Shown one piece after another: positions 11,545 through 39,806 of a stretch of DNA of 39,806 nt (positions within the stretch are counted from its first letter, which is position 1; the number at the start of each line of letters is the position of its first letter). The DNA comes from Bernardetiaceae bacterium (GTDB lineage: Bacteria; Bacteroidota; Bacteroidia; Cytophagales; Thermoflexibacteraceae). The stretch spans positions 1 to 39,806 of the forward strand of contig JANWVT010000022.1 of the NCBI GenBank assembly GCA_025056255.1. Reading direction: 5' to 3'. The notes below the pieces were generated by a model. It was not told where the DNA came from. It saw only the letters and a program-made list of their open reading frames with translations, and searched no databases. The translations under genes and the position numbers were made by a program.

Positions 11545-13011
11545 TTATTTAGGCAATCCTTTGATAACAATGAGCTGACTGGCTTGGTCTTCGTTGGGGC
11601 GCAAGGTACCGCCATCTACACCGCGATACTGCGTTCCGCGCCAAGTATGCGGCTGCACGCAAACAACATATGTGTCGGGGCTACCGATTACATCGGAAAT
11701 GTCAATCATAGCACCATACTCCCATGAGCCAAGGGCAGAGCGCCCGTTCACATTGTATTTAGCTGCATCAGAAGCATTGCGGCGATGGTCGCATTCAATC
11801 ACAGGGCGCAGCTGCTTGGTGCGGATGTCGTACTGATAGATGTAGGCATCGTGTGTTTCATCGCCGTAGCCGTTAGGGTCTTCTTGGATGTACACATAAT
11901 TTTCGCCTACGAAAATATTATCGGGGTTTTGGAACAAACGGGCAGGTCCTTGGCGGTCATCGCCGTCCAAAATCACTTCCAATTTGCCGCGCAGCGGGTT
12001 GTTAGCATCCAAGTTCAGCTTGTACACACGTCCGTACTTGGTGCGGCTGTATCCGGCATTCACGCCTGTGTTGTTTTGTCCGGTTACGCAGAAATAAAGT
12101 TCCCGATTGTTGGCAGCAGAACCTTTGCGGTAGTCAATGTCTTCTACCCTTCCAAAGGAAATAGCCCCCAAACGGTTTACAGCTTCATTGATTTGTCGAC
12201 CTGTCAGTGTAGTATGATTTTCTATTTCTACAAATTCTACGTCGTAAACAGTTCCTACGCGCATGTCCATTTCGCGCTGATTGCGGTCGGTGCGGCGCAA
12301 CATGTAGAGTTTGCCATTGGCAAGGTCGCCTACGCGGTCGCTCACATACATGGCAACTTGTCCGCCGCCGGTGGTACCGCTGTCATCGTCGCCGATGATG
12401 ATAACAGTGCGTCCGGGGTAGGCATTTTTGTTCAATGGCACAGCATTTTCAGCACTCCAACGACCCAAGCCGGGCAACTCGCGGCTGGTGCTTGCCATAG
12501 TGGCAGGGTCGGTAGGATTCAAGCCATGCGTGCGAGACTCTTCACCGCTCTCGCCGCAAGTAAGAAACAGCGGACCAAAGCCATGCTCTTCGGGAGTTGC
12601 CAGTGTAGCGGAGCACAAACGCCAGATGCCACCGGTAGAATTCAACACATACTCACCTGAAACGGGCTTGAAGGTTTCGTCTAATACCAAACGGGAAACG
12701 GCAAAGTTGTCTTCGTGATTTACCAAGAGGGCATACTGTCCGTTGGCTAATTTCATGATGCCTGCACCGTCGGCAGAACCGCCAAATACAAAGTTAGGAG
12801 AGGCTGGCAACTTATCGTCGCTACCAAACAACGAGAAAACCTGAATGTTTTCAAATCCGGGCATCTTTTTTACCAACGCCGGCGTTACAGAGTGGTCTTT
12901 CAATACTATTTTGCTTACTTCTTCTTTGGAAGAAGAGTTGCAAGCAGTTAGCGCCAAAGCTGTCATAGACAAACAGCCGGCTACTTTTACAATTGCAGGA
13001 AAATTTTTCAT
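11545..13011 (-). CDS. PhoX-like (DUF839) lipoprotein, possible phosphatase
   Basis: A 488-residue predicted outer-surface or periplasmic lipoprotein with signal MKNFPAIVKVAGC and lipobox LALTAC (Cys24). The body resembles the PhoX/DUF839 family, beta-propeller proteins whose characterised members are Ca2+/Fe3+-dependent alkaline phosphatases. Visible family-style blocks are ALLVNHEDNF, FLTCGESGEE, IIIGDDDSGTTGGGQVAMYV, DVEFVEIENH, FGRVEDIDYRK and DNIFVGENYVYIQED. The acidic, metal-binding character fits. The start is placed at ATG 13011, not at an ATG eight codons upstream, because it gives a standard lipoprotein signal. Phosphatase activity is inferred, and many DUF839 proteins are untested. 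It lies between a GT2 gene and the peroxidase-Rieske pair on the same strand. Confidence 0.82.
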   Translation of the reverse strand: MKNFPAIVKVAGCLSMTALALTACNSSSKEEVSKIVLKDHSVTPALVKKMPGFENIQVFSLFGSDDKLPASPNFVFGGSADGAGIMKLANGQYALLVNHEDNFAVSRLVLDETFKPVSGEYVLNSTGGIWRLCSATLATPEEHGFGPLFLTCGESGEESRTHGLNPTDPATMASTSRELPGLGRWSAENAVPLNKNAYPGRTVIIIGDDDSGTTGGGQVAMYVSDRVGDLANGKLYMLRRTDRNQREMDMRVGTVYDVEFVEIENHTTLTGRQINEAVNRLGAISFGRVEDIDYRKGSAANNRELYFCVTGQNNTGVNAGYSRTKYGRVYKLNLDANNPLRGKLEVILDGDDRQGPARLFQNPDNIFVGENYVYIQEDPNGYGDETHDAYIYQYDIRTKQLRPVIECDHRRNASDAAKYNVNGRSALGSWEYGAMIDISDVIGSPDTYVVCVQPHTWRGTQYRGVDGGTLRPNEDQASQLIVIKGLPK

Positions 13012-13148
13012 AGCAGTCTTGTGCGGTTTTGCCACAAAAGACTACAACAGAATTCAACTACATATGAAACGCTATTTAATAATTTGTCAACAAAAAGAAC
13101 GTTTGTAACATTTTATTGAAGTAAAATTCACAAATAAGCGAAAAAGCT

Positions 13149-24732: not shown

Positions 24733-26859
24733 TTGAACATTAACCAGTCTTATCGGTCATATTGCGTTTATTTGCCTGTTATCTGGTTGTTGTTGCTTTT
24801 GAACATTTCTCATTTTTGCTGCGGGCAGCAGCTGAAAACAAATATTTTTGAAAATGAGCAACTAAAGACCAAAGATGCTGTTTTTCATATCACGCGAACC
24901 GATACAGTGCTACTGCCCGGTAAGTTTCTCTACCTGCTGACTGATAGCACCAGTCAGTTGACTATTCAAGATATTTTGCAACCGAACTATCAAGCTGCTT
25001 TTCAGAGGCATCCGTACGATTTTTCTTCTCAAACAGCTCCTCAGCATGCTCATTGGGTAAAACTTTCGTTCATTAATCACACCGATGAAACCATCTGGCT
25101 AAGCAATCAGAATGCTTTTGTGCATTACATTGATTTTTATGCAGCAGATAGCAGTGGACAGTATCGCGCTTTGTATCAAACGGGCATTATGCGTCCTGAC
25201 AGCACAAAGGCTTTTCCGCATTCCAACATGTATTGGTTTCCTCTACCAGCTCGCAAAGGCAAACTGACTACTGTTTATATCCGCATGGAAGGAGGTACGG
25301 TTGTTCCTTATAGAATGTATGCAGGTTCGCTAACGACATTGATTGGTCAGAAAAATATTAGCGACTATGCTTTCGGCATGGTAGTCGGTATTATTTTAGT
25401 TATGCTTGGCTACCACATTTTTCTTATTTTCGCTACACGTGCCAGCATCTATATCACCTACTCAGCTTATTTGTTAAGCTGTTTGTTTGTTGTTCCTCAA
25501 CTGATGGGTTATCATGAGGTATTCACGTTTTTTTTGCCAGCATCATATAAGCCGCTGTTACACAAATATTTCTTGGCATGGCATAGCATCATATACGTAT
25601 TGGTTATTTGTTTTGCCATTCATTTTTTAAAATTGCGACAAAGGCTACCTTATTTTTTTGCTTATCTGCTCGTGCAATTAGTCATATTTGGCGTTGTTTT
25701 TCCTGCGCTGAACATCATAGGTAAAGTATACTTCTCTTGGCTTTTTGTTTGCTACCAACTGAACATTTTGTTGCTCTATGTCACGCTGATGTTAGTAGGT
25801 TTTTACCTGTGGTTGTATAAAAAAGACAGCATGGCGCGTTTCTATACTTTTGCGTGGGTATGGATAGTGATTGCTTCGTTTCTATACATCTGTTACCTGA
25901 ATAACTTACTGCCTTACAGGTTAATTTTCTCGTTTGCCCCTATTTGGGGCATTACTATGGAAATTTTGTTTTTTTCTCTTGCCATTGGCAACCGCATCAA
26001 TTTAATGCGTCAAGAAAACTTGCGCCTCGTAGCTGAACAAAACATCATACTGGAAAAAAAAGTGACTGAGCGCACCTATGCACTCTCGCAAGCCAACTTG
26101 GCTTTGCAACAAGCCAACGAAGAGCTTACTGCCGTTAATGCCAAGTTAGAAGCACAAAGCCATTTGTTAGAAGAGTTGAATCGTACCAAAGACAAGTTAT
26201 TTGCCATTATAGGCCACGACCTGCGCAATCCAATTAACTCCCTACTGGGTTTGTTCAGTCTCTTGGAGAGCGGTGTGATTGGGTCGGAGGAGTTCATGGC
26301 TTTTTCTGAAAAGCTCAAAGCCAACGTAGAAAGGCTTCATGTAACGCTTGACAACCTGTTGATATGGGCAAACAATCAGTTGTGGGGCATCAAAGCTATC
26401 CCCCAACGTTTTAGCTTACATGAAGTAGCAACAGAAAACATCAGGTTGCTCAACCAGATGGCACAGGCAAAAAACGTCAGTATTCACAACCTTGTCCCGG
26501 TAGAAGCACATGCATTAGCAGACGTAGAGCAAATTAAACTTGTATTCCGCAACCTGATTACCAATGCTATCAAGTTTACCTCCACAGGCGGGACAATTAC
26601 CATTACAGCTTCTCGACAAGAACGGCATTGGCAAACAGACATCACCGATACGGGAACAGGCATTCCTCCGGACAAACTACCCAAACTATTTACTAGCGAA
26701 TTTACCTCTACCAGCGGTACCAACAAAGAGAAAGGCACCGGACTGGGCTTGCTGCTCTGCAAGGATTTTGTTGAGAAAAACGGCGGCAAGATAGGTGCAA
26801 ACAGCACCGAAGGCATAGGAAGCACGTTCTTTTTCACTGTTCCGGCAGCGGCGGATTAG
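24733..26859 (+). CDS. 7TM-DISM sensor histidine kinase
   Basis: A 708-residue membrane sensor. A signal peptide (to about residue 32, ending HFCCGQQ) is followed by an extracytoplasmic DISMED2-type sandwich (about 50-200) and a 7TM-DISM block of seven helices (about 205-430). Next come a coiled linker and the kinase core with His495 in IIGHDLRNPINSLLGL, N-box NLITNAIKFT, DTGTGIPP and GTGLGLLLCK. Ligands of such receptors are often carbohydrates or other small molecules. No response regulator or receiver domain is present. The start must be TTG 24733: TAA at 24727-24729 closes the frame upstream, and no ATG occurs before the signal peptide. The 3' end overlaps convergent uvrC by 26 bases. Confidence 0.9.
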   Translation: MNINQSYRSYCVYLPVIWLLLLLNISHFCCGQQLKTNIFENEQLKTKDAVFHITRTDTVLLPGKFLYLLTDSTSQLTIQDILQPNYQAAFQRHPYDFSSQTAPQHAHWVKLSFINHTDETIWLSNQNAFVHYIDFYAADSSGQYRALYQTGIMRPDSTKAFPHSNMYWFPLPARKGKLTTVYIRMEGGTVVPYRMYAGSLTTLIGQKNISDYAFGMVVGIILVMLGYHIFLIFATRASIYITYSAYLLSCLFVVPQLMGYHEVFTFFLPASYKPLLHKYFLAWHSIIYVLVICFAIHFLKLRQRLPYFFAYLLVQLVIFGVVFPALNIIGKVYFSWLFVCYQLNILLLYVTLMLVGFYLWLYKKDSMARFYTFAWVWIVIASFLYICYLNNLLPYRLIFSFAPIWGITMEILFFSLAIGNRINLMRQENLRLVAEQNIILEKKVTERTYALSQANLALQQANEELTAVNAKLEAQSHLLEELNRTKDKLFAIIGHDLRNPINSLLGLFSLLESGVIGSEEFMAFSEKLKANVERLHVTLDNLLIWANNQLWGIKAIPQRFSLHEVATENIRLLNQMAQAKNVSIHNLVPVEAHALADVEQIKLVFRNLITNAIKFTSTGGTITITASRQERHWQTDITDTGTGIPPDKLPKLFTSEFTSTSGTNKEKGTGLGLLLCKDFVEKNGGKIGANSTEGIGSTFFFTVPAAAD

Positions 26860-28663
26860 TAGCTATTTTACTGTTGAGATGCTTCAAAACCGTTGCCGCT
26901 TTGTCTTTACCAATCAACTCAGCCAGTTCTTCAAAAGGCACGGTGGCAATTTTTTTTACCGAACGGTATTTGGCAAGCAGTTTTTCGGTGGTTTGTTTGC
27001 CAATGCCGGGGATGCCTTCTAACTGACTCACCAAACTTTTGCGGCTGCGCTGGTCGCGGTGGAAGCTGATGGCAAAGCGGTGTGCCTCGTCGCGGATGCG
27101 TTGCAGCAGCATCAAACCTTCCGATTTTTTGTTAATCAGCAGCGGTAGCTCGTCTTCGGGGTAAAAAATTTCTTCCAACCGCTTGGCAATGCCCACAATA
27201 GGCACCAGCCCGTAGATGCCCAAATCTTTCAGCGCTTGGCAGGCGGCACTCAGTTGTCCTTTGCCGCCGTCAATCACAATCAGGTCGGGCAGGGTTTTGT
27301 GGTCGTCCAGCAGGCGGCGGTAGCGGCGCGTTACGATTTCGTACATAGACGCAAAATCGTTCGGACCTCCTACGGTTTTGATATTGAAATGGCGATAGTC
27401 TTTTTTAGAAGGCTTGCCGCCTTTGAAACACACCATTGCTGCCACAGGGTTGGTGCCTTGCAGGTTGGAATTATCAAAACATTCTATGTGCATCGGCACA
27501 TTGGGCAGGTTTAGGTCGGCTTTGAGGCGGTCAAGTACGCGCTTGCTTTGTTCTTTCTGCTCGCTGTCGCGCTGCATTTTGTCTTTGCGGTAGAACATGG
27601 CGTTTTTGTAGCTCAGTTCTACTAATTTTTTCAGGTCGCCGATTTTGGGAACCATCACCTCAAAGCCTTCAAATGCAATCTCCGTTGCAATGTTGGTTAC
27701 TACGCGGGCTGCTTCGGAACGGAACTGTTGCCGGAACTCCACAATCATGGAAGCCAAAATATCGGCTTCGCTTTCGTCTAATTTCTTTTTCAGATGCACG
27801 GTTTTGGTTTGAACGATGCAGCCGTGCTCAATGTGCAAGTAGTTGAGGTAGGCATATTTTTCATCGCTTGTGATGGCTACCACATCCAAATCGGAAATAT
27901 CGGGATTGACCACCAGCGACTTGCTCTGAAATTTTTCCAACGCCTCTAACTTTTCCTTGAAAACCTGTGCTTCTTCAAAAGCCAGCCTGCCGGCAGCTTC
28001 CATCATTTGCTCGCGGAAGTAGTTGCGCACCACGCCTAACTTGCCTTTAAGAATGTTAGTTACCTGCTGCATGTCCGCATCGTAGTCGGTAGCGGTTTGC
28101 AAACCTTCGCAGGGTCCTTTGCAGTTTTTGATGTGGTATTCCAAACACACTTTAAACTTCCGGCGGGCAATGTTTTCAGGGGTGAGCGCATATTTGCAAG
28201 TGCGAATGGTGTACAGGCGGCGCACCAATTCCAGCACGGTTTTCATTGCTTTCACGCTGGCATAAGGTCCGAAGTAGGTTCCGCGTCCTTCTATTCGCTT
28301 GCGGGTCGGAATCAAACGCGGGAAGGGTTCGTTGGTAATGCACAGGTAGGGATAGGTTTTGTCGTCGCGCAGCAGGATGTTGTAGCGCGGCTGGTGTTGT
28401 TTGATGAGGTTGTTTTCCAGCAGCAGCGCATCAAATTCCGAATTGACAACGGTGTATTCTATGCGGCGAATTTCGCGCACCAATTGGCGGGTTTTGCGGC
28501 TTTTGTCGTTAGATTTGACAAAGTAGCTGCTGACTCTGTTTTTCAGGTTTTTGGCTTTGCCGACATAGATAAGTTCATCCGCTGCATTGTAGTAGCGGTA
28601 CACACCCGGCGCGGGCGGCAAGTTGCGGATGGTTTCTATCAGTTCGCTGCGTTCTTCTTGCAT
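26834..28663 (-). CDS. uvrC: Excinuclease ABC subunit C
   Basis: A 609-residue UvrC that makes both incisions in nucleotide excision repair. Order: GIY-YIG nuclease (APGVYRYYN and LIYVGKAKNLKNRVSSYF, about 17-48), a Cys-containing middle segment (KVCLEYHIKNCKGPCEG near 170), the UVR motif that contacts UvrB (about 205-240), and the RNase H-like 5' nuclease with HIECFDNSNLQGTNPVAAMV and DLIVIDGGKGQL. The C-terminal helix-hairpin-helix reads LEGIPGIGKQTTEKLL and continues to the end. Length is normal. The start is ATG 28663, and a TATCTTTG -7 element lies about 100 bases upstream between palindromic repeats. Confidence 0.97.
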   Translation of the reverse strand: MQEERSELIETIRNLPPAPGVYRYYNAADELIYVGKAKNLKNRVSSYFVKSNDKSRKTRQLVREIRRIEYTVVNSEFDALLLENNLIKQHQPRYNILLRDDKTYPYLCITNEPFPRLIPTRKRIEGRGTYFGPYASVKAMKTVLELVRRLYTIRTCKYALTPENIARRKFKVCLEYHIKNCKGPCEGLQTATDYDADMQQVTNILKGKLGVVRNYFREQMMEAAGRLAFEEAQVFKEKLEALEKFQSKSLVVNPDISDLDVVAITSDEKYAYLNYLHIEHGCIVQTKTVHLKKKLDESEADILASMIVEFRQQFRSEAARVVTNIATEIAFEGFEVMVPKIGDLKKLVELSYKNAMFYRKDKMQRDSEQKEQSKRVLDRLKADLNLPNVPMHIECFDNSNLQGTNPVAAMVCFKGGKPSKKDYRHFNIKTVGGPNDFASMYEIVTRRYRRLLDDHKTLPDLIVIDGGKGQLSAACQALKDLGIYGLVPIVGIAKRLEEIFYPEDELPLLINKKSEGLMLLQRIRDEAHRFAISFHRDQRSRKSLVSQLEGIPGIGKQTTEKLLAKYRSVKKIATVPFEELAELIGKDKAATVLKHLNSKIATNPPLPEQ

Positions 28664-28719
28664 GTGTCAATTGGGTACATGAGCTATCCCGATTTTTTTA
28701 ATTGTCTCTTGGATATGCC

Positions 28720-28895
28720 AGCCCTACGGGCTTTTGAGACTGGAATAAACGATTTTTGCTACAAAGATAACAGCCCTAAGGGCTTGTAAGTGCTATTTGT
28801 AAAACCGTAGGTTTGTCATCTTAGTAGCATTTGCCGGTAATAGAAACGCCGTCAGCGAAAACCGTAGGTTTGCTATCTTAGTAGTAGCATTTGCA
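28720..28895. repeat. Cluster of four short palindromes and a 57-base direct repeat
   Basis: AGCCCTACGGGCT (28720-28732) and AGCCCTAAGGGCT (28772-28784) are two versions of one hairpin. AAACCGTAGGTTT occurs at 28802-28814 and 28859-28871, and each copy is followed by a similar tract (ATCTTAGTAGCATTTGC in the first; the second has an extra TAG). The spacing between the latter two is 57 bases. They are too few and too irregular for a CRISPR array. Confidence 0.75.
28762..28769 (-). promoter_or_regulatory. Candidate -7 element for uvrC
   Basis: The minus strand reads TATCTTTG, an exact match. It sits directly next to one palindrome (28772-28784), and the other (28720-28732) would lie in the uvrC 5' leader of about 90 bases. 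Confidence 0.5.
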
Positions 28896-29124
28896 GCACA
28901 CATTCAATACAAAACGCTATTCGGCGTGGCATCTCACGATATTACCAATCTTTGTTATTGCATCAATCACGCGGCTATTCAATTTTCGGGATGACTCATC
29001 TCTGCGTTACCGCCTTTCCACAAATTTAGGTTTCCTGCGATTCATTCACCACAAAAAACGCCGCCGTTTACCTGTCCAAAGCCGCCGTTCACAAGTTTGG
29101 CAAGCGCGGTAATTTTCATTTTTC

Positions 29125-29132
29125 TACTTTCG
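29125..29132 (+). promoter_or_regulatory. Weak -7-like element before the symporter gene
   Basis: TACTTTCG differs from TAnnTTTG at one position and lies 53 bases upstream of ATG 29185. It is the only promoter candidate seen for the 29-38 kb run. Confidence 0.25.
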
Positions 29133-29184
29133 GTAGTGCACGGTGTTGATTGGCATTAACATCGTGGGTAAATCTGAAAATGAA

Positions 29185-30729
29185 ATGACTGAACTTGCCT
29201 CCGAACAACTGGTGATTGCCGGTTGGGTCAGTATTGCGGCATATGCCCTGCTGATTCTGTTTTTTGTGGTGCGCGGCGCACGTAAAATCACTAACCTGTC
29301 CGACTATGCGGTGGGTAGCGTGCTGTTTTCGCCCGTAGCGGTGGGGCTTTCGCTGGCTGCCTCTATGACCTCCGCTGCCACGTTCATCATCAACCCGGGT
29401 TTTGTGGCTTTCTACGGCATCAGCGGCGTACTTTCTATGGCGGTGATGTTGCCGCTGGGGGCTTTGGGTTCATTAGTTGTTCTCACCAAAGGTTTCCGCA
29501 AGGTAGGCATGAGCGTAAAGGCGCTCACCATGGCGCAGTGGATTGGCACGCGCTACGGTAGCCCTGCTTTTGCCATGTTTTTTGCCGTGTTGTCGCTGTT
29601 GCTGCTCACGTTTATCGTGCTAATTTGCGTGGGGCTGACCAAAGTTATTTCGCAAACGCTGAACCTGCCCGAACTGCCTGTGCTGATTGGCATCGTAGTT
29701 TTCATTTTCGGTTACATGATGTTTGGCGGGGCTAATTCAATGGTTTACACGAACATGATTCAGGCGCTGCTGATGATAGCGGTTGCCGTTATATTACTTA
29801 CTTCGGGCTATGAACATTTTTCGGCAGGTGTGAAGGGCTTTATAGACAAGCTCGCGGCAATTGACCCGCTGCTCACCGCGCCACTGAACCCGAAATCTTA
29901 CCTGTTTCGCGATTGGTTTGAAGTGGCATTTTGCCAATTGGTGGTAGGCGTGGCAATTGTTTGTCAGCCGCACATCATTACGCGCTCGTTGTTGCTCAAA
30001 GATGACAAAGATGTCAATCGCTACTTAGTAACGGGCGTGCTGGTGGAAATCCTGTTTTTCTTCGTGGTATTTGCGGGCTTATATGCTCGCCTGCGCTTCC
30101 CCGATTTGACCATTAACGGGCAGGCTGTACCTCTGGACGGCATACTTTCCGCCTACGTGGTCAGTGAATTTCCTGTTTATGTGGGGCTGATTGTGGTGCT
30201 GGGGTTGATTTCCGCCGGACTTTCTACGCTGGAAGGCTTGATTCAGTCGCTATCAACCTCTATTAGCAGCGATTTGCTCAAACCACTGGCAGGCAAGTGG
30301 CTCATCCGCGATGAACAAAATCCGCAAGGGCTGATTCCCGCCATTTTGTTGAATCGCTTGGTGATTGTGGTGCTGGGCGTGCTGGCGGTGCTGGTATCTT
30401 GGCAGCAGTTGGTCGCCCCCGATTTGAGCGTAGGCATATTCGCACAAAACGGGGTGTATGCCTATTTTTCAGCGGCTTTTGTACCGGTGCTGTTCGGAAC
30501 GTTTGTCAAAAATGTACCGCTGCGTGTGCCTGTGGCAGGGGCGGTAACGGCTACTATTGTGCATTTTGCAGTGTATTACGGCAGGCTGACGCCCTATATG
30601 GAAGCACCCGTGCGCAACCCGGGCATTGCTGCCGCGCTGGCAATTCTGTCGGCGGTTGCAGTTGCAGGGGTGTTGTATTTAGTCAGTGCCAAAGTGCGCA
30701 TAGTTGAACCACAAAGTACACAAAGGTAA
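29185..30729 (+). CDS. Sodium:solute symporter (SSS family)
   Basis: A 514-residue inner-membrane transporter with about thirteen helices. The early block NLSDYAVGSVLFSPVAVGLSLAASMTSAATFI is the SSS helix-1/2 region, and GLISAGLSTLEGLIQSLSTSISSDLLKPL near residue 345 is the conserved helix-8 region with the Na+-site Ser/Thr residues. The family takes up sugars, amino acids, short carboxylates or pantothenate; the substrate cannot be read from sequence. The start is ATG 29185, 14 codons inside the maximal frame. The last codons (PQSTQR) come from a CACAAAG repeat. It heads the plus-strand acyl-processing gene run, so a carboxylate is a reasonable guess. Confidence 0.87.
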   Translation: MTELASEQLVIAGWVSIAAYALLILFFVVRGARKITNLSDYAVGSVLFSPVAVGLSLAASMTSAATFIINPGFVAFYGISGVLSMAVMLPLGALGSLVVLTKGFRKVGMSVKALTMAQWIGTRYGSPAFAMFFAVLSLLLLTFIVLICVGLTKVISQTLNLPELPVLIGIVVFIFGYMMFGGANSMVYTNMIQALLMIAVAVILLTSGYEHFSAGVKGFIDKLAAIDPLLTAPLNPKSYLFRDWFEVAFCQLVVGVAIVCQPHIITRSLLLKDDKDVNRYLVTGVLVEILFFFVVFAGLYARLRFPDLTINGQAVPLDGILSAYVVSEFPVYVGLIVVLGLISAGLSTLEGLIQSLSTSISSDLLKPLAGKWLIRDEQNPQGLIPAILLNRLVIVVLGVLAVLVSWQQLVAPDLSVGIFAQNGVYAYFSAAFVPVLFGTFVKNVPLRVPVAGAVTATIVHFAVYYGRLTPYMEAPVRNPGIAAALAILSAVAVAGVLYLVSAKVRIVEPQSTQR

Positions 30730-30750
30730 AAATCGCAAAGAGGCACAAAG
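30710..30750 (+). repeat. CACAAAG tandem-like repeat overlapping the symporter 3' end
   Basis: CACAAAG occurs at 30710-30716, 30719-30725 and 30744-30750, with a GCAAAG variant at 30735-30740. The symporter stop (TAA, 30727-30729) lies inside, so its final residues are repeat-encoded. Confidence 0.7.
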
Positions 30751-30825
30751 TAAAATTTCCAATAAAAGAACTTGGCATTCGCTGCGGTGGAACACAAAAA
30801 CCAAAAAAACAAACCGACAACCCAT

Positions 30826-31794
30826 ATGAAACTCACTCCATTTTTCTTGCTGTTTGTCCTGTTCGCCGCCTGCGGTGGCGATGCGGAACTTGCTTGGGAC
30901 AGCGCCAATGACAAACGTCCACCTTTTGCACCACAATATGCCTTCGCCGTGAAAGAAACCGAATATCCGAAAGGGTACAAAATGGCTTATACGGACGAAG
31001 GCACAGGCGATACAGCTATTGTATTCATCCATGGTTTGGGCGGCTACCTGAAACACTGGGAAGCAGTTGCCGATTCACTGAAAGGTTCTTTTCGCTGTAT
31101 TGCGGTTGATTTGCCCGGCTATGGCAAATCGTCGCGTGCCGAATTCAAAGCCAATGACTTCATGGATTTTTACGCCGATGCAGTGCTGCACCTCATCAAT
31201 GCTTTGCAACTCAAAACCGTTGTGCTGGCAGGGCACAGCATGGGCGGACAAATTGCGATGGTTGCCGCACTGAAAGCCCCTGATAAAATCGCAGCGTTGG
31301 TGCTGGCTGCTCCGGCAGGCTTTGAAACGTTCAGCGCAACGGAAGGCTATGCGATGAAGTCATTTGCCACTGCCGATTTTTTTGCCAAGCAGGGCGAAGC
31401 CGAAATCCGCAAGAGTTTTGAAGCCAACTTTTTCCAAATGCCACCGCAAGCAGAGCAACTGATTCAGGAACGGCTGGCGATGCGCAACAGCTACGGTTTT
31501 GAGGCATACTGCCAAACAGTCGCCAACGGCGTAAAGGGCATGTTAGACCATCCTGTCAGAGAGCAACTGCCCAATATCCGCCAAAAAACGCTGGTGCTGT
31601 TCGGGGCAAACGACATGCTGATTCCCAACCGATTGATGCACAAGGATTTAACTACGCAACAAGTAGCGGAAGAAGGTACCAAAGCACTACCCAATGCTCG
31701 CTTGGTAATGATTCCCGAAGCAGGTCACCTGCTGACCTTTGAAAAACCGCAGGCAGTGGCGGCAGAAATCAGGCAGTTTTTGAAACCGCAATAA
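30826..31794 (+). CDS. Alpha/beta hydrolase lipoprotein
   Basis: A 322-residue exported hydrolase. The signal peptide ends with lipobox LFAAC (Cys16), followed by GGDAE, so it is probably a lipoprotein facing the periplasm or cell surface. Catalytic elements: oxyanion HGLGGYLKHW near 69, nucleophile Ser138 in AGHSMGGQ, acid Asp263 in GANDMLIP, and His301 in PEAGHLLTFEKP. It resembles esterases and lactonases of the broad fold; the substrate is unknown. ATG 30826 is preferred because upstream in-frame codons would give a non-hydrophobic leader. The stop codon touches a hairpin (31794-31828), and the TonB receptor gene follows. Confidence 0.9.
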   Translation: MKLTPFFLLFVLFAACGGDAELAWDSANDKRPPFAPQYAFAVKETEYPKGYKMAYTDEGTGDTAIVFIHGLGGYLKHWEAVADSLKGSFRCIAVDLPGYGKSSRAEFKANDFMDFYADAVLHLINALQLKTVVLAGHSMGGQIAMVAALKAPDKIAALVLAAPAGFETFSATEGYAMKSFATADFFAKQGEAEIRKSFEANFFQMPPQAEQLIQERLAMRNSYGFEAYCQTVANGVKGMLDHPVREQLPNIRQKTLVLFGANDMLIPNRLMHKDLTTQQVAEEGTKALPNARLVMIPEAGHLLTFEKPQAVAAEIRQFLKPQ

Positions 31795-31828
31795 ACCGCC
31801 GGCAGGGACTTCGTCCGCTGACGGGGTT
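31794..31828 (+). terminator. Imperfect hairpin directly after the hydrolase stop
   Basis: AACC...GGTT outer arms enclose CAGGGAC TTC GTCC-G-CTG with one bulge (31803-31820). The hairpin starts at the last base of the TAA stop. No strong T-run follows, so it may be a hairpin repeat or attenuator and not a full terminator. Confidence 0.4.
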
Positions 31829-31929
31829 ATTAGAATCCCTGAGAGCGGCTACAAGCGCGGCTGCAAGCTCTGGAATTCAGCAAAATAACAGAAAATCAAT
31901 TCACACAAACCTTTGAAAATCAAGTAAAC

Positions 31930-34446
31930 ATGAAAATGATGAAAACTTTTCTACTCACAGTTGCCCTGCTGTTTGGTGCAGTGCAGGCATGGGCACAAAA
32001 CGGTACGATTACAGGTACTGTTACGGCAAACAACGAACCGCTCATCGGTGCTTCGGTAATTGTAGTCGGCTCTATTACGGGCAGCACTACCGACGCAACG
32101 GGCAAGTATTCCATCAGCATCAAGCCCGGCACGTATAAATTGCGCATTTCGTTCATTGGCTATGAAACCCAAGACCATACCGTTACTGTTACGGCAGGGC
32201 AGACCACTACTTTGGATGTTGCCATGGTAGAAGGTGCGCTGGTAGGTCAGGAAGTAATTATTTCTGCTTCGCGTCGCCCTGAAAAGCTAACCGAAGCCCC
32301 TGCCACCATCGTTACTTTCGGTGCGAAGGAAATCAGTGAACTGCCTTCGTTCAACGTAGGCGAACTGCTGGCGCGTCAGAAAGGCGTGGACTATGTTCGC
32401 TCGGGTGTTTTGGGCGTAGGTATTAACGTGCGCGGTTTCAACTCGGCTTTCAACCCCAAAAACCTGCAAATGAACGACGGTCGCCTTTCCACGCTGATTG
32501 CCACTGGTTTGCCACTGGGCGCACTGAGCACCGTTGTAAAGGAAGACGTAGAGCGCGTGGAAATTGTACTGGGTCCTTCTTCGGCGCTGTACGGACCGAA
32601 TGCACACAACGGCTTAGTGAATACCATCAGTAAAGACCCACGTACCTCGCAAGGCACCACCGTTGCGCTGGGTGTGGGCAACCAAAGCGTAATGACAGCC
32701 CGCTTGCGCCATGCACAAGTGTTGAGCAAAAAATTTGCTTTCAAGCTATCGGGCGAATATACACAAGGCGAAGAATTTCCTTACACCGATACTGTTTATT
32801 TCAACAATACTGCTTTCCCGACCTTCACGGGTGGTGCTGTTCCGGCAAGATTCTCTGCCGTTCCCGAATTGGATTTGGACAGAAAATTCAGCAGCCTGCG
32901 CGGTGAAGCAGCCCTGTATTATTCTATCAACAACAACTCTGATTTAATTTTGGCATATGGCGGAAGCAATAGCAACAACATTGGCGTAACCAATGCCGGT
33001 CGCAACCAAATCAAAGACTGGCAGATTCATTACCTGCATTTGCGCTATGTGTCGCCACGCTTGTTTGCACAGGTATATCATACCATTTCCAAAACCGACG
33101 ATACCTATGCCATGAACCAACGCACGCAGAACTACATTTCGTTCCGCGATGCGGGATTTTCTGATGCGGAAGCACGCCGCCGCTCTATGAGTGAACAATG
33201 GTTTGGTATTTCGCCTACAATTGGCGTAGCTTTAAATCGCGGCGCACTTTTCCGCGACGACTCGCGCCGTTGGAACGGAGAGGTGCAATACAACAACAGC
33301 TTTGCAGGTTTTGACGTAATTGTAGGTACGCAGTTCCAACGCGATATTGCGCAGAGCTACAACACTTACTTGCTGGATGCCAAAGGCGCAATCGTAATTG
33401 ACCAAGTAGGTTTCTATGGGCAAATTGAGCGCGGACTGGGAAATGGCTTTAAGGCTACGGTGGCAGCCCGCGCCGATAACCACGACTTGTACGGCTTCAA
33501 CTTCATCCCCAAAGCAGCTATCACCAAAACATTCCAAAGCGGAACTGCACGCATTACCTACGGACAAGGTATTTCAGCCCCTACCATCTTAAACTTGGAA
33601 GCCAATATCTTTGGCGGCTTATTGCTGGGTAACGGTAGCGGCTTCACCTTGAACGACGGCACAGCCATTCCAGCTTTAAAAGTTGAAAAAATCAGCACTT
33701 TTGAAATAGGTTACAAAGGCACCATCGGCAAAAATCTGTTCATAGATGTAAACGCTTATCACAATACGTCCCGCGACTTCCTCAGCCCCGCCCTGAACAT
33801 TGCCACCAACGGACGCACCGTAACACAGCGCGGTGGCGTGCCCATGAACCAAGTGATACCCGGCACACCTGCTACTGGTGCACCATTGGTGCTGACTTAC
33901 CTCAACTTTGGCAATGTACAAACTTATGGCGCCGACCTGAGCCTTACCTATGCTTTTACGCCACAACTTTCTACTACTCTGAATTACAGTTGGTTTGGAT
34001 ATAGCTTAGACAAAAATGACTTGGCTAATGACGGCAACAAAGACGGTCGCGTAACCGATTTGGACTTGCCCATCAATACGCCTGCTCACAAAGCAAGCTT
34101 TTTAGTAAGCTACTCAAGCAGTAAATGGTTTGGTTCTATCTTTACGCGCTGGGTAGACCGCTACAACTTCTTTTCAGGTATTCACGTAGCTTCCGAAACC
34201 ATTCCTGAGCTGGGCATTCGCGAAAATGCGCGTTTTGGTCGCACTTTCAACTACGGTCCTTTGGGCGGTTTTGTAAACGTGGACGTATCGGCAGGTTATC
34301 GCTTTGGCAAAGTGGTTACACTTTCTGGTCAGGTAACCAATCTGTTCAATGCACGCGTGTATGAGTTTGTAGGTTCGCCGATTATCGGTCGCTTGTACAG
34401 CTTGGAATTGAAAGTGAACATCCCTGCCATTGGCAGCAAGAAATAA
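31930..34446 (+). CDS. TonB-dependent outer-membrane receptor with carboxypeptidase-regulatory domain
   Basis: An 838-residue outer-membrane transporter. The signal peptide (1-23) ends QAWAQ. A carboxypeptidase-D-regulatory-like domain (about 25-105) has GTITGTVTANNEPLIGASV and LRISFIGYETQ. The plug (about 115-235) has EVIISASRRPEKLTEAPATI, INVRGFNSAFNPKNLQMNDG and VERVEIVLGPSSALYGPNAH. The rest is a 22-strand-type barrel with alternating residues. There is no SusD-like partner, so it is not a SusCD glycan pair; it belongs to the siderophore/vitamin/hydrophobic-substrate type. The protein ends NIPAIGSKK, without the usual terminal aromatic residue. It is preceded by a surface hydrolase and followed by a FabG-like gene. 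Confidence 0.92.
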   Translation: MKMMKTFLLTVALLFGAVQAWAQNGTITGTVTANNEPLIGASVIVVGSITGSTTDATGKYSISIKPGTYKLRISFIGYETQDHTVTVTAGQTTTLDVAMVEGALVGQEVIISASRRPEKLTEAPATIVTFGAKEISELPSFNVGELLARQKGVDYVRSGVLGVGINVRGFNSAFNPKNLQMNDGRLSTLIATGLPLGALSTVVKEDVERVEIVLGPSSALYGPNAHNGLVNTISKDPRTSQGTTVALGVGNQSVMTARLRHAQVLSKKFAFKLSGEYTQGEEFPYTDTVYFNNTAFPTFTGGAVPARFSAVPELDLDRKFSSLRGEAALYYSINNNSDLILAYGGSNSNNIGVTNAGRNQIKDWQIHYLHLRYVSPRLFAQVYHTISKTDDTYAMNQRTQNYISFRDAGFSDAEARRRSMSEQWFGISPTIGVALNRGALFRDDSRRWNGEVQYNNSFAGFDVIVGTQFQRDIAQSYNTYLLDAKGAIVIDQVGFYGQIERGLGNGFKATVAARADNHDLYGFNFIPKAAITKTFQSGTARITYGQGISAPTILNLEANIFGGLLLGNGSGFTLNDGTAIPALKVEKISTFEIGYKGTIGKNLFIDVNAYHNTSRDFLSPALNIATNGRTVTQRGGVPMNQVIPGTPATGAPLVLTYLNFGNVQTYGADLSLTYAFTPQLSTTLNYSWFGYSLDKNDLANDGNKDGRVTDLDLPINTPAHKASFLVSYSSSKWFGSIFTRWVDRYNFFSGIHVASETIPELGIRENARFGRTFNYGPLGGFVNVDVSAGYRFGKVVTLSGQVTNLFNARVYEFVGSPIIGRLYSLELKVNIPAIGSKK

Positions 34447-34464
34447 TTTTTCACCGTTTTTCTA

Positions 34465-34495
34465 AACCTGACAGGTGTTCATAACCTGTCAGGTT
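34465..34495. repeat. Perfect inverted repeat after the TonB receptor gene
   Basis: AACCTGACAGGT (34465-34476), loop GTTCATA, ACCTGTCAGGTT (34484-34495): a perfect 12-base stem 18 bases after the stop. T-runs precede it and none follows, so intrinsic termination on the plus strand is doubtful. The arms are related to the 11494-11523 repeat. Confidence 0.75.
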
Positions 34496-34528
34496 GGAAA
34501 GACCATCCATCAAACATCGTAACCAAAC

Positions 34529-35269
34529 ATGAAATTACAAGGAAAAGTCGCCGTGATTACGGGCGGGGCTGCCGGTATCGGGAAAGCCGCCTGCTACAAA
34601 TTTGCCGCAGAAGGTGCAGCCATCGCCATTTGGGACATGAACGAAGCCGCAGGGGCGGCACTCGCCACCGAACTTGTAGGCAAAGGCACAAAAGCGACGT
34701 TTTACAAAGTCAACACTGCCGACTATGCCGCCGTAGAAGCTGCTGCAAAGGAAACACATGCCGCCTTCGGTCGGATTGACATTCTGATTAACAATGCAGG
34801 CATCACCCGCGATGCTTCGTTGAAAAAAATGACCCCCGAACAATGGCAACAAGTGATTGACGTAAACTTGACAGGCGTATTCAATTGCGGCAAGGTTATT
34901 TCCGAATACATGGTAGCACAGAACTATGGGCGGATTATCAACACCTCTTCCGTAGTAGCACTGTACGGCAACTTCGGGCAAACCAATTACGTAGCCGCCA
35001 AATCAGGCGTTATTGGGATGACCAAAGTATGGGCAAAAGAATTGGGCAGAAAGGGCGTTACCTGCAACGCCGTAGCGCCGGGCTTCATTGCTACCGATAT
35101 GGTAAAAACTATTCCGCAAGAAATTTTAGACCAAATCACCTCGCGTGTGCCGCTGGGGCGCATGGGGCAACCCGAAGACATCGCCAATGCCTATGCCTTT
35201 TTGGCATCCGATGAGGCTGCCTACATCAACGGGGCGGTTATCAGCGTAGATGGCGGCGCAACGTTGTAG
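34529..35269 (+). CDS. FabG-like short-chain dehydrogenase/reductase
   Basis: A 246-residue classical SDR of the 3-oxoacyl-ACP/acetoacetyl-CoA reductase type, cytosolic and probably NADP(H)-dependent. Motifs: cofactor loop TGGAAGIG at 11-18, NNAG near 88, structural Asn113, Ser140/Ser141 in INTSSVV, Tyr154 and Lys158 in YVAAK, then VAPGFIATDM and the C-terminal ISVDGG. Length and fold match FabG and PhaB, and cannot tell ACP from CoA substrates. It is followed by a KAS III-like gene after a palindromic repeat. Together with the ligase downstream it suggests acyl-thioester chemistry. An essential housekeeping FabG is usually near fabD/acpP, which are not here. Confidence 0.9.
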   Translation: MKLQGKVAVITGGAAGIGKAACYKFAAEGAAIAIWDMNEAAGAALATELVGKGTKATFYKVNTADYAAVEAAAKETHAAFGRIDILINNAGITRDASLKKMTPEQWQQVIDVNLTGVFNCGKVISEYMVAQNYGRIINTSSVVALYGNFGQTNYVAAKSGVIGMTKVWAKELGRKGVTCNAVAPGFIATDMVKTIPQEILDQITSRVPLGRMGQPEDIANAYAFLASDEAAYINGAVISVDGGATL

Positions 35270-35296
35270 GGGAATATTATGACGCATTGTTGTGAT

Positions 35297-35337
35297 GTAG
35301 GGACAGGGCGCGCCCGTTGCACGTCGCCTGTCCCTAC
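35297..35337. repeat. 41-base inverted repeat between the SDR and KAS III-like genes
   Basis: GTAGGGACAGG (35297-35307) pairs perfectly with CCTGTCCCTAC (35327-35337). Inside is a second palindrome, GGGCGCGCCC (35306-35315), and TTGCACGTCG. Part of the interior (GCACGTCGCCT) recurs in the tail of the element near 16330. A similar 28-base palindrome follows the KAS III-like gene. Confidence 0.8.
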
Positions 35338-35380
35338 AATATCGCAACCGCGTTACAAAAACATTCAAATTCAAAAAAAC

Positions 35381-36370
35381 ATGAATAATGCCATTATTTT
35401 AGGCTCGGGCAGCTATGCCCCCGAATGGGTATTGCCCAACAGCTACTTCAACGAACTGCTTGGTGAAGACGTGGGCACGTGGCTGGAACAAAACGTCCAC
35501 ATCTATGAACGCCGCTGGTGCCGCGATGATGAATCAACTTCCGACTTGTGCCTGAAAGCCGCTCAAAAAGCACTGGCAGCTGCCAAAGTTGCCCCCGAAG
35601 AACTAAACTTAATTATCGTAGCCACTGATACGCCCGAATATATTTCGCCTTCTACCGCTTCCAAGTTGCAGTACCAACTCGGGGCGGTCAATTCGGGCGC
35701 GTTTGACTTGAACAGTGCCTGCGCGGGCTTCGTAACTGCCTTGGATGTGGCGGCTAAGTATATTCGCGCCGATGAGCAGTACCAAAAAATCTTGGTCGTA
35801 GGTGCATATGCCATGAGCAAACACCTCAACAAGCGCGACAAAAAAACCGTTACGCTCTTTGCCGACGGTGCGGGTGCGGTCGTTTTAGGTGCAGAAGCCG
35901 ACACCGACAGAGGCTTCATAGCCTCGCAACTGATTGCACAGGGGCAATATTGCGACTGGATGGGCATTTACGCGGGCGGCACGCGCCAACCTGTAACCGA
36001 AGAAGTGCTGCAAGCTAAAACGCATCAATTGCAGTTTGTCAAAAAATTTCCTGTGGAAATCAACCCCGATACATGGACGGCAATGATTCAACACCTCTGC
36101 CAACGCATTGGCGTGCAGCCTGCCGACGTGCAGCAATATTTCATTACCCAACTGAATATCAACAGCATTTGGGAAACGCTCGGGCGGCTTAACCTGCCGA
36201 AAGACAAGGCGCATACCATCATGCAACGATACGGCTACACCGGCTCGGCGTGCATCCCGATGGTGTTTGACGACGCAGTGCAAAAAGGCATCGTCAAAAA
36301 AGGCGATTTGGTATTTTTCGTAGGTTCGGGCGGCGGGCTATCGTTCGCATCGGCGGCGTTTAGGTTGTAA
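35381..36370 (+). CDS. KAS III-like thiolase-fold protein with altered catalytic residues
   Basis: A 329-residue FabH-type (3-oxoacyl-ACP synthase III) protein. The N-terminal half has ILGSGSYAPEWVLPN, an ERRW segment, ATDTPEYISPSTASKLQYQLG and the nucleophile Cys114 in LNSACAGF. The C-terminal half is unusual. Where FabH has the catalytic His (VPHQAN), this reads FITQLNIN with Gln257; where FabH has Asn (YGNTSAASIP), it reads YGYTGSACIP with Tyr286. The fold is intact to the GSGGGLSFASAAF end. It may be an acyltransferase or hydrolase-like variant and not a decarboxylating condensing enzyme. ATG 35381 is chosen because an upstream in-frame start at 35279 would translate the 35297-35337 repeat. 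Confidence 0.85.
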   Translation: MNNAIILGSGSYAPEWVLPNSYFNELLGEDVGTWLEQNVHIYERRWCRDDESTSDLCLKAAQKALAAAKVAPEELNLIIVATDTPEYISPSTASKLQYQLGAVNSGAFDLNSACAGFVTALDVAAKYIRADEQYQKILVVGAYAMSKHLNKRDKKTVTLFADGAGAVVLGAEADTDRGFIASQLIAQGQYCDWMGIYAGGTRQPVTEEVLQAKTHQLQFVKKFPVEINPDTWTAMIQHLCQRIGVQPADVQQYFITQLNINSIWETLGRLNLPKDKAHTIMQRYGYTGSACIPMVFDDAVQKGIVKKGDLVFFVGSGGGLSFASAAFRL

Positions 36371-36394
36371 AATTTATTGACAACCATGTATCGT

Positions 36395-36422
36395 GTAGAG
36401 ACGTTGCACGCAACGTCTCTAC
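36395..36422. repeat. Perfect 28-base palindrome after the KAS III-like gene
   Basis: GTAGAGACGTTGC (36395-36407), AC, GCAACGTCTCTAC (36410-36422): a perfect 13-base stem with a two-base centre. It lies 25 bases past the stop. The GTAGnGAC...GTCnCTAC frame is shared with the repeat at 35297-35337, so the two flank the KAS III-like gene. The rest of the 176-base gap has no obvious feature. Confidence 0.8.
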
Positions 36423-36546
36423 TGTAAAACCCGCATCCTCTATCCAATTCTGATGCTCAAATCAACAAAACCTTAGTGTTCACTGCGTTTAATCCCCTGA
36501 CGCTCTTTGCGGTAAACAATCCCAAAACAACAAAAATCCTTCACCT

Positions 36547-38049
36547 ATGACAACCGATTGGATAGGCAAATGGGCAATGTATCAGCCCAATAAAACGGCG
36601 GTCAGCTCTTACGAAACAGGGCAACGCCTGACTTACGGGCAATTGAATCAACAGGCGGAACAAACTGCCCGTTGGTGGGCTTCATTGGGCATCCGCTCGG
36701 GCGACCGCGTGGCTGCGCTGTTAGATTTTTGCGTTGAATATGTCGTTTTGTTCGGTGCGGCGCAAAAAACGGGCGCAATCCTCGTGCCGCTGAACTATCG
36801 CCTGTCGCCGCGTGAGTTGGACTATCTGCTGTCCGATTCGCAGCCTCAAATGGTGATTTGTGCCGAAAAATACCTGCCACTGTTGCAGGAACAACCTCAT
36901 TATGAATCAGTTAATAATCGCCTGACGCTGACAGATTATCAGCAAATACTGTCTAAGGATGCCGTTGCAGGCGAATGGCACTTTGCGCCGCCGACAGAAG
37001 AAAGCCCCCTATTCATCCTCTACACATCGGGTACGACGGGCTTCCCCAAAGGCGCCATTTATACCCACAAAATGGCATTTTGGAACAGCATCAACACCGC
37101 CTTGCGCTTAGACCTTACCTCGGCAGACCATACGGTTATCTGTATGCCGCCGTTCCACACGGGTGGCTGGAACGTGTTCCTTACCCCCTTCCTGCATCAT
37201 GGCGCATCGGTTACGCTGATGCAAAAGTTTGATGCTTCCGATGTACTGCGTGCGTTGGCAACTGAAAAAAGTACCATTTTTATGGCAGTGCCTACCATGC
37301 TCAAAATGATGGCTGATGCACCCGAATTTGAGCAAGCAGACCTATCGGCGATTCGCTATTTCATCGTAGGCGGCGAACCCATGCCCATCCCTTTGATTGA
37401 AACATGGCATCACCGCAAAGGCATCCCCATTCGGCAGGGCTTTGGCATGACCGAAGCGGGACCCAACCTATTTTCCCTGCATCAGGACGATGCCATTCGC
37501 AAAAAAGGCTCTATCGGCAAGCCCAATTTCTACGTGGAAGTAAAATTGGTGGACGAAGAAGGCAAGGAAGTACCAACAGGCGAAATCGGCGAACTGCTCA
37601 TTAAGGGGGCGATGGTAACGCCCGGCTATTGGCAAAAACCCGAAGCAACGGCTCAGAGTTTTCAGGGCGAATGGTTCTGTTCGGGCGACCTGCTCAAATG
37701 CGACGAAGAGGGCTATTTCTTTGTGATGGACAGAAAGAAAAATATGTTCATTTCGGGCGGCGAAAACGTATATCCCGCTGAAATTGAGCACTTTTTGCGG
37801 CAGCATGAGCGAATAGCCGAAGTGGCAGTCATTCCGATTCCGCATGAAAAATGGGGCGAAGTCGGCAAGGCATTCATTGTGCCGCAAACCGGTGCCATGC
37901 TCACCGAACAGGAAGTGCTGGATTTCTGCCAAGGGCGGCTGGCACGCTACAAAATCCCGAAGGAAATTGTATTTATCAATGAATTACCCAAAAATGCAAC
38001 GGGCAAAATAGACCGTCGGGCGTTGGCGAATCTCTCCTCATCAGTTTGA
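36547..38049 (+). CDS. Acyl-CoA synthetase / AMP-dependent ligase
   Basis: A 500-residue adenylate-forming enzyme that activates a carboxylic acid with ATP and usually transfers it to CoA. Motifs: P-loop FILYTSGTTGFPKG (156-169), MPPFHTGGWN, IRYFIVGGEPMP, A5 GFGMTEAGPN, the hinge region YFFVMDRKKNMFISGGENVYPAEIE, and the catalytic Lys487 in PKNATGKIDRRAL. The N-terminal WWASLGIRSGDRVAALL and length fit the FadD/medium-chain group. Substrate length cannot be deduced. It follows the KAS III-like gene across the 36395-36422 palindrome and precedes a FAD-linked oxidase by 40 bases. In context it could activate acids released by the secreted hydrolase. Confidence 0.93.
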   Translation: MTTDWIGKWAMYQPNKTAVSSYETGQRLTYGQLNQQAEQTARWWASLGIRSGDRVAALLDFCVEYVVLFGAAQKTGAILVPLNYRLSPRELDYLLSDSQPQMVICAEKYLPLLQEQPHYESVNNRLTLTDYQQILSKDAVAGEWHFAPPTEESPLFILYTSGTTGFPKGAIYTHKMAFWNSINTALRLDLTSADHTVICMPPFHTGGWNVFLTPFLHHGASVTLMQKFDASDVLRALATEKSTIFMAVPTMLKMMADAPEFEQADLSAIRYFIVGGEPMPIPLIETWHHRKGIPIRQGFGMTEAGPNLFSLHQDDAIRKKGSIGKPNFYVEVKLVDEEGKEVPTGEIGELLIKGAMVTPGYWQKPEATAQSFQGEWFCSGDLLKCDEEGYFFVMDRKKNMFISGGENVYPAEIEHFLRQHERIAEVAVIPIPHEKWGEVGKAFIVPQTGAMLTEQEVLDFCQGRLARYKIPKEIVFINELPKNATGKIDRRALANLSSSV

Positions 38050-38089
38050 AACACGGGAAAAGCGTCGTATCTTAGAATTAAGTGTGAAT

Positions 38090-39806
38090 ATGGTCATTCG
38101 CACTTCCAAACGACCTTTTGTTTCTATGATAAACGCCTTGAAGCAGTTGGAAAAGCAGTTGCAGGGCGAACTGCACACCGACCTTGCCACGCGCATCTTG
38201 TACGCTACCGATGCCTCTGCCTACCGCGAAATGCCACTGGCAGTAGCCATACCCAAAACTGTTGACGACCTCAAACGGCTGATTCAGTTTGCCAATCAAT
38301 TTCACACCTGGCTGATTCCACGCACGGCAGGCACTTCGCTGGCGGGGCAGGTAGTCGGCAACGGCATTGTGGTAGATGTTTCCAAATATTTCAACAAAAT
38401 TCTTGAAATCAACCCTGAGGAAAAATGGGTGCGTGTGCAGCCCGGAGTCGTTCGCGACGAACTCAATATGGCGTTGAAACCTTACGGACTGTTTTTCGGA
38501 CCCGAAACCTCCACTGCCAACCGCGCCATGATTGGCGGCATGGTGGGTAATAATTCTTGCGGTTCTAATTCTATCGTTTACGGCAGCACGCGCGAACATG
38601 TACTGGAAATCAAGGCGTTACTTGCCGATGGCAGCGAGGTTGTTTTCAAAGAGCTAAGCCTCAACGAATTTCAGGCAAAGTGCAATAACCACAACACTAC
38701 CAGCCCCTTAGAAACAGCTATCTATCGGCAAATGAGAGAGCTACTGTCAAATCCTGATAATCAGCGAGCAATTCGCGACAACTTTCCCAAAGCAATTATT
38801 GAGCGGCGCAACACAGGCTATGCATTGGATTTGTTGCTGGAAACGGAACCCTTCAGCACAGCAGAACAATACCGGACTTTCGGACCTTATCAACAAAAGG
38901 CAGATAAGCCGCCGTTGTTTAATTTTTGCAAACTGCTTGCTGGTTCAGAAGGAACTTTGGCTTTTATGACGGAGTTCAAGCTCAATCTGGTGCCGCTTCC
39001 GCCTAAAAAAGTTGGATTGGTTTGTGTGCATTGCAACAGTATTGATGAGTCGCTTCGTGCCAACATCATCGCCGTCAGACATCGCCCCACTGCAAGTGAA
39101 CTAATGGATCATTACGTACTGGAATGTACCAAAGCCAACATTGAACAGCGGCAAAACCGATTTTTTGTGCAAGGCGACCCGCAAGCAATTTTAATAGTAG
39201 AATTTTCCAAAGATACTGACGAAGAAATTTACCAAGCTGCTCACAACTTAATTGCCGATTTGCAAGCGCATGGTTTGGGTTACCACTACCCTATTGTTAG
39301 CGGAGCAGACGTCAAAAAAGTGTGGGCGCTGCGCAAAGCTGGACTCGGATTGCTTGCCAATATTCCCGGCGACGAGAAAGCAGTTGCTGTTATTGAAGAT
39401 ACCGCCGTTGCCGTAGAAGATTTACCTGCTTACATCCGCGAGTTCAATGCCATTTTGAAAAAATACGGGCTTTACAGCGTACACTATGCCCATGCCGGCT
39501 CCGGCGAGCTGCACTTGCGCCCTATCATTAATCTGAAAACCGAAGAAGGGAATCGTTTATTTAGAACTATTGCCCAAGAAATTGCCATACTTGTCAAAAA
39601 ATACAACGGTTCGCTTTCAGGCGAACACGGCGACGGGCGCTTGCGCGGCGAGTTCATTCCTCAAATGGTTGGGCAGCGCTGCTACGAAATGTTCCGGCAG
39701 GTCAAACAAACTTGGGACCCCAAAGGCATTTTCAACCCCAACAAAATTGTGGACACCCCGCCGATGAACCAATCTCTGCGCTATCAGCCTAACCAGCCTA
39801 CCCCCG
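38090..39806 (+). CDS. FAD-linked oxidase, D-lactate/2-hydroxyacid dehydrogenase type (partial)
   Basis: An open frame runs from ATG 38090 to the right edge without a stop: 572 codons. It has the FAD-binding-4 region with TAGTSLAGQVVGNGIVVDVS (about 78-97) and FFGPETSTANRAMIGGMVGNNSCGSNS, then the FAD-oxidase C-terminal domain with HYAHAGSGELHLRP (about 465-478) and SGEHGDGRLRGEF near 510. WDPKGIFNPNKIVD follows. Relatives such as YdiJ-type proteins continue with a CCG/4Fe-4S half to about 950-1000 residues; that part would lie beyond the window. It likely oxidises a D-2-hydroxyacid and passes electrons to the respiratory chain. A second ATG at 38126 (MINALKQL) is an alternative start. Confidence 0.88.
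   Translation, partial: MVIRTSKRPFVSMINALKQLEKQLQGELHTDLATRILYATDASAYREMPLAVAIPKTVDDLKRLIQFANQFHTWLIPRTAGTSLAGQVVGNGIVVDVSKYFNKILEINPEEKWVRVQPGVVRDELNMALKPYGLFFGPETSTANRAMIGGMVGNNSCGSNSIVYGSTREHVLEIKALLADGSEVVFKELSLNEFQAKCNNHNTTSPLETAIYRQMRELLSNPDNQRAIRDNFPKAIIERRNTGYALDLLLETEPFSTAEQYRTFGPYQQKADKPPLFNFCKLLAGSEGTLAFMTEFKLNLVPLPPKKVGLVCVHCNSIDESLRANIIAVRHRPTASELMDHYVLECTKANIEQRQNRFFVQGDPQAILIVEFSKDTDEEIYQAAHNLIADLQAHGLGYHYPIVSGADVKKVWALRKAGLGLLANIPGDEKAVAVIEDTAVAVEDLPAYIREFNAILKKYGLYSVHYAHAGSGELHLRPIINLKTEEGNRLFRTIAQEIAILVKKYNGSLSGEHGDGRLRGEFIPQMVGQRCYEMFRQVKQTWDPKGIFNPNKIVDTPPMNQSLRYQPNQPTP

Follow-up and report, generated by a model that had tools for sequence, protein, structure and literature searches.

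What reaction does a FabH-type beta-ketoacyl-ACP synthase III (KAS III) carry out when its nucleophilic cysteine is kept and the two residues that normally assist it are not? The question is raised by a gene in the window, by which we mean the whole stretch of DNA analysed, 39,806 nucleotides of a contig from a Bernardetiaceae bacterium. The first-pass annotation had called a KAS III-like reading frame here, and its coordinates as well as its family are borne out by the reading-frame list, Pfam and NCBIfam (Table 1). The mechanically called frame begins at 35279, and we adopted the start at 35381 because homologues align from its residues 1-4 and the additional stretch crosses a palindrome. 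The resulting product, a FabH-type KAS III of 329 amino acids, scores 91.4 bits against Pfam ACP_syn_III (cut-off 24) and 80.4 bits against ACP_syn_III_C (cut-off 26.6). Among the NCBIfam models it passes the general PRK09352 (254.2 versus a cut-off of 249) and fails TIGR00747, the fabH model (220.6 versus 292.1). It is not placed among the thiolases by Pfam, with Thiolase_N at 25.9 bits falling under its cut-off of 26.4 and Thiolase_C absent at E 0.001.

A Cys-Thr-Tyr active site in a KAS III fold

Alignment to FabH structures places Cys114, within the motif LNSACAGF, at the nucleophile position, as had been proposed. The same alignments (five of five printed in each of two comparisons) set the FabH catalytic His against Thr256, Gln257 against FabH's own conserved Gln of HQAN, and the catalytic Asn of the GNT motif against Tyr286. 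The earlier proposal that both His and Asn are lost is therefore upheld, including Tyr286 at the Asn site; its assignment of Gln257 to the His site was displaced by one residue and is ruled out, and the triad reads Cys-Thr-Tyr. Judged from these alignments, the pair of residues that supports malonyl decarboxylation and condensation has been replaced, while the nucleophile is kept. The thioester enolate is normally stabilised at a site made up of His and Asn. On sequence grounds the protein likely carries out a reaction that differs from that of FabH. Two further KAS III genes found in the source genome have the normal HQAN and GNT motifs.

Structure prediction supported the family and left the active site aside. 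An AlphaFold model, built from five sequences that included the His/Asn protein L026, reached a mean pLDDT of 64.3 and fell below 50 at residues 84-89, 113-115 and 281-287, so that it gives no active-site geometry. All 50 Foldseek matches shown were KAS III proteins, mostly FabH (E 9.3e-24 to 9.7e-18), at an rmsd of 13.6-17.9 A, and the model accordingly supports membership of the KAS III family only.

Conservation and a separate subfamily

Among 395 genomes sampled from Bacteroidota, the phylum of the window, 58 had a match at E <= 1e-52, the window included, of which a single one, G266 (locus L114), has the normal triad. A Thr/Tyr-type gene is thus present in 57 of the 395 sampled genomes, its own genome counted. 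The phylum matches together with G002, G003, L024 and L025 gave an alignment of 63 rows, and removal of the two His/Asn rows, L026 and L114, left 61 (the window and 60 homologues of its phylum). Cys114, Gln257, Asn259 and Tyr286 are each present in 61/61 rows; at residue 256, 60 rows have Thr and one (L064) has Ser. Close homologues thus carry the same change, which defeats the objection that they might have the normal triad, and a local or chance mutation is rejected, since Cys-Thr/Ser-Tyr is common to all rows. A compensating His is rejected as well, as no His is invariant across the 61 rows. The genus relative G001 is without a close homologue (best E 1.3e-39).

Beyond the phylum, a Chloroflexota plasmid protein, the best among 361 matching plasmid records, is 41-42% identical and also of the Thr/Tyr type. 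In the phylum of the deltaproteobacterial MAG G430, 119 of 297 genomes had profile matches at E <= 1e-70 (best 293.6 bits), and the 12 loci checked for motifs were all His/Asn. A scan of the viral_contigs set for additional rows found none.

For a comparison of the two types we combined 50 of the 61 rows with the Chloroflexota protein (51 Thr/Tyr rows) and set them against 32 His/Asn KAS III rows, of which the window's order and genome supplied 19 and the G430 searches 13, a search-derived and unbalanced sample. In a quick, unrooted tree of 27 of the Thr/Tyr rows and the 32 His/Asn rows, a single branch with an SH-aLRT of 100 separates the two sets; the Chloroflexota row forms a long branch. 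Several other positions switch as well: Ser89 is found in 50/51 Thr/Tyr rows versus Phe in 21/32 His/Asn rows, Ser316 in 50/51 versus Phe in 32/32, Pro224 in 51/51 versus Val in 31/32, and Asn228 in 51/51 versus Ala in 31/32, while Met194 of the Thr/Tyr rows is replaced by Leu or Ile in the His/Asn rows. Since these positions change along with the triad, the pocket of the Thr/Tyr subfamily looks rebuilt rather than decayed, as far as aligned residues can tell. We found no description of a Thr/Tyr KAS III subfamily in the titles and opening lines of abstracts in the open-licence literature.

The gene neighbourhood and a possible degradative role

The first-pass annotation had placed the gene in an acyl-processing run, a description that holds and can be extended to a conserved gene set that covers uptake, CoA activation and dehydrogenation (Table 1).

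Table 1. Features of the window around the KAS III-like gene. Neighbour counts refer to genes on the same strand in 60 homologous loci, assigned to their best class by BLAST at E <= 1e-15; the classes are large families and the counts are unshuffled.
Feature	Coordinates	Strand	Basis and occurrence
SSF sodium:solute symporter	29143..30729	+	Pfam, NCBIfam; within 8 kb in 47/60 loci
Alpha/beta hydrolase, GHSMGG Ser nucleophile	30826..31794	+	within 8 kb in 55/60 loci
TonB-dependent outer-membrane receptor	31930..34446	+	Pfam; within 8 kb in 21/60 loci
FabG-like SDR dehydrogenase	34529..35269	+	Asp36 at the NAD/NADP-selecting position; within 500 bp in 52/60 loci
Palindrome	35296-35338		GTAGGGACAGG...
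KAS III-like protein (main finding)	35381..36370	+	Cys114-Thr256-Tyr286; Pfam, NCBIfam, homologue and FabH-structure alignments
Palindrome	36395-36422		GTAGAGACGTTGC...
AMP-dependent acyl-CoA ligase	36547..38049	+	within 4 kb in 57/60 loci
FAD-linked lactate/glycolate dehydrogenase-like gene (by eye)	downstream of 38049, to window end 39806		incomplete

At least three of the five partners lie near the KAS gene in 56/60 loci, and at least four in 45/60. The SDR is found within 8 kb on the same strand in 53/60 loci; in L068, L078 and L080 one is encoded in the opposite direction some 6 kb away, and it is missing from L099, L105 and L107. Three loci are without the ligase, two of them truncated by a contig end and the third being L024, where the KAS gene has neither SDR nor ligase within 8 kb. 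By best model score the ligase is closest to FadD/MenE-type models and the SDR to FabG. The hydrolase, whose scans began at 30829, one codon short of 30826, has an N terminus that by eye is signal-peptide-like and lipoprotein-like, and its Ser137 is present in 57/57 rows. An MFS-like transporter, named by eye, occurs in seven loci.

Other genes recur with the set. A MarR-like regulator was matched in 49/60 loci, and a lipoprotein and an outer-membrane protein in 37/60 each (E <= 1e-5, anywhere in the stretch examined); none of the three had a match in window positions 25000-39806. The lipoprotein and a roughly 510-residue outer-membrane protein stand at 12033-14583 of L066 (KAS orientation) as recurrent operon genes, and those of L025 had no Pfam match. 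In L083 the ligase is followed by another KAS III-like gene (12061-13080, KAS orientation), which is also present in L082, L087, L088 and L090 and shares 21-23% identity with the first; by eye, the L083 copy keeps one His close to the site of the FabH His and has another at the FabH Asn site, within IGHVGQ. The FAD-linked dehydrogenase-like gene that follows the ligase in the window gave no match in the other loci compared. The Chloroflexota cluster comprises SDR, KAS, thiolase, OB-fold protein, hydrolase and ABC transporter genes, and an acetyl-CoA hydrolase/CoA-transferase family gene occupies the ligase slot.

Two palindromes of similar style do flank the KAS gene, as had been noted. Each is single-copy in the genome (at up to two mismatches in one search and with exact arms in the other), and on the downstream side, which was the side compared, L056 has a different palindrome 3' of the KAS gene and L057 none. 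We reject them as part of the system: this variation between close relatives probably places them outside it and suggests a variable intergenic element.

The combination of uptake, CoA-activation and dehydrogenase genes points to a catabolic operon. Asp36 of the SDR, at the end of the second strand, is invariant in the 57/57 loci aligned, the window included (proteins of at least 45% identity, taken from anywhere in the locus). An acidic residue at this position favours NAD, and Asp36 is suggestive of NAD use by the enzyme. The evidence is weak, since four of seven other SDRs examined in the source genome (of 18 other matches) also carry Asp or Glu there; the nearest SDR paralogue has Lys. The secreted-looking hydrolase, the uptake genes and the CoA-forming enzyme point in the same direction as Asp36, and the CoA-hydrolase/transferase gene and ABC transporters of the Chloroflexota cluster fit the expectation for catabolism of an acid.

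We tentatively favour, with rather less than even confidence, a KAS III subfamily found mainly in the window's phylum that works in a catabolic operon, with acyl capture at Cys114, probable thiolytic cleavage, and Tyr286 and Thr256 helping. A secreted esterase and an outer-membrane receptor or porin would supply a carboxylic acid, which the SSF (or MFS) transporter would bring into the cell and the ligase would convert to its CoA thioester. The SDR could then oxidise a 3-hydroxyacyl-CoA to the 3-oxoacyl-CoA, after which the KAS-like protein would load the acyl group onto Cys114. Thiolytic (retro-Claisen) cleavage is the likeliest route for this last step, in which Tyr286 and Thr256 would substitute as acid/base or hydrogen-bond donors. 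A more specific version, which we regard as possible and put forward with reservation, is that a KAS III has turned degradative, having lost condensation through the exchange of His/Asn for Thr/Tyr, with its Tyr-assisted Cys cleaving a 3-oxoacyl-CoA or polar beta-keto thioester in an operon for ester-linked 3-hydroxy acids. The main difficulty for retro-Claisen chemistry is that the enolate would be left without a proven stabiliser once His and Asn are gone. In addition, a thiolase-like gene, named by eye, flanks the KAS locus in five loci; with the thiolase of the Chloroflexota cluster, this would make a second thiolase redundant and counts against cleavage.

Alternatively, Cys114 might be acylated from CoA and then deliver the acyl group to water, an alcohol or a carrier, with no C-C chemistry involved. 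The kept Cys and the replacement of both condensation residues would suit such an acyltransferase, and CerJ and ChlB3 are KAS III folds that became acyltransferases, according to excerpts of PMC9573744. Those enzymes use Cys-His-Asp, however, whereas the Thr/Tyr family has no invariant His, and no obvious acceptor gene (ACP or glycosyltransferase) stands among the commonest recurring neighbours, as named by eye; we consider this role somewhat unlikely. Less probable again is a condensing enzyme with Thr and Tyr as helpers in a biosynthetic, OleABCD-like pathway. KAS, hydrolase, ligase and SDR are the four protein classes of the Ole pathway, and the PDB sequence matches include 3row, which we take to be OleA, and its relatives at 66 bits. 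Yet the hydrolase has a Ser nucleophile and the signal-peptide-like N terminus, the ligase and SDR score closest to the models named above, Asp36 and the uptake genes argue for the opposite direction, and OleA has both His and Asn. Finally, the protein might serve the SDR or ligase as a partner that binds substrate or does no catalysis, with its KAS fold playing a structural part. This would agree with the loss of two catalytic residues and the close gene neighbourhood and is very improbable given the invariance of Cys114 in 61/61 rows and of Tyr286, Gln257 and Asn259.

If the catabolic reading is correct, Cys-Thr-Tyr would be an added catalytic solution in the thiolase superfamily, and the genes around it would form a testable set for the catabolism of a carboxylic acid; the degradative reading would make this a widespread, previously undescribed operon. 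Such a likely catabolic gene is easily masked by a fatty-acid-synthesis label, since it passes PRK09352, the general 'beta-ketoacyl-ACP synthase 3' model.

Relation to known systems

OleABCD brings a KAS, an alpha/beta hydrolase, an AMP ligase and an SDR together in one run. The window operon differs in its secreted-looking hydrolase, its transporters and its subfamily scores, and membership is rejected because the protein has Cys-Thr-Tyr in place of the Cys-His-Asn triad of OleA. With FabH and other KAS III enzymes it shares the fold family, the Cys nucleophile, the length and the best sequence matches; it differs from them by Thr256 for His, Tyr286 for Asn, the other switched positions and the failure of TIGR00747.

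CerJ and ChlB3 resemble it in being KAS III folds with a changed triad, which excerpts of PMC9573744 give as Cys-His-Asp. Their His apparently sits at the FabH Asn site, where the window family has Tyr, and with no invariant His among the 61 rows membership is rejected; the residues do not match acyl transfer of this type.

In the thiolase-fold enzymes Ltp2 and Sal, a Tyr serves as catalytic acid or base when C-C bonds are cleaved, as described in excerpts of PMC12329534. They share the thiolase superfamily with the window protein, whose Tyr286 is comparable to their Tyr by residue type. Both are of the SCP-2 type, with a DUF35 partner and retro-aldol chemistry (same excerpts), and the window operon showed no DUF35-type partner.

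The deoxyribonate catabolic cluster of Klebsiella, for which a CoA ligase, a 3-hydroxyacyl-CoA dehydrogenase and a thiolase have been proposed to act together (PMC6365646, in excerpt), is a proposed precedent for such a grouping, in which an enzyme for C-C cleavage stands beside the other two. In the Klebsiella cluster this enzyme is a thiolase, whereas in the window operon the KAS III protein fills the slot.
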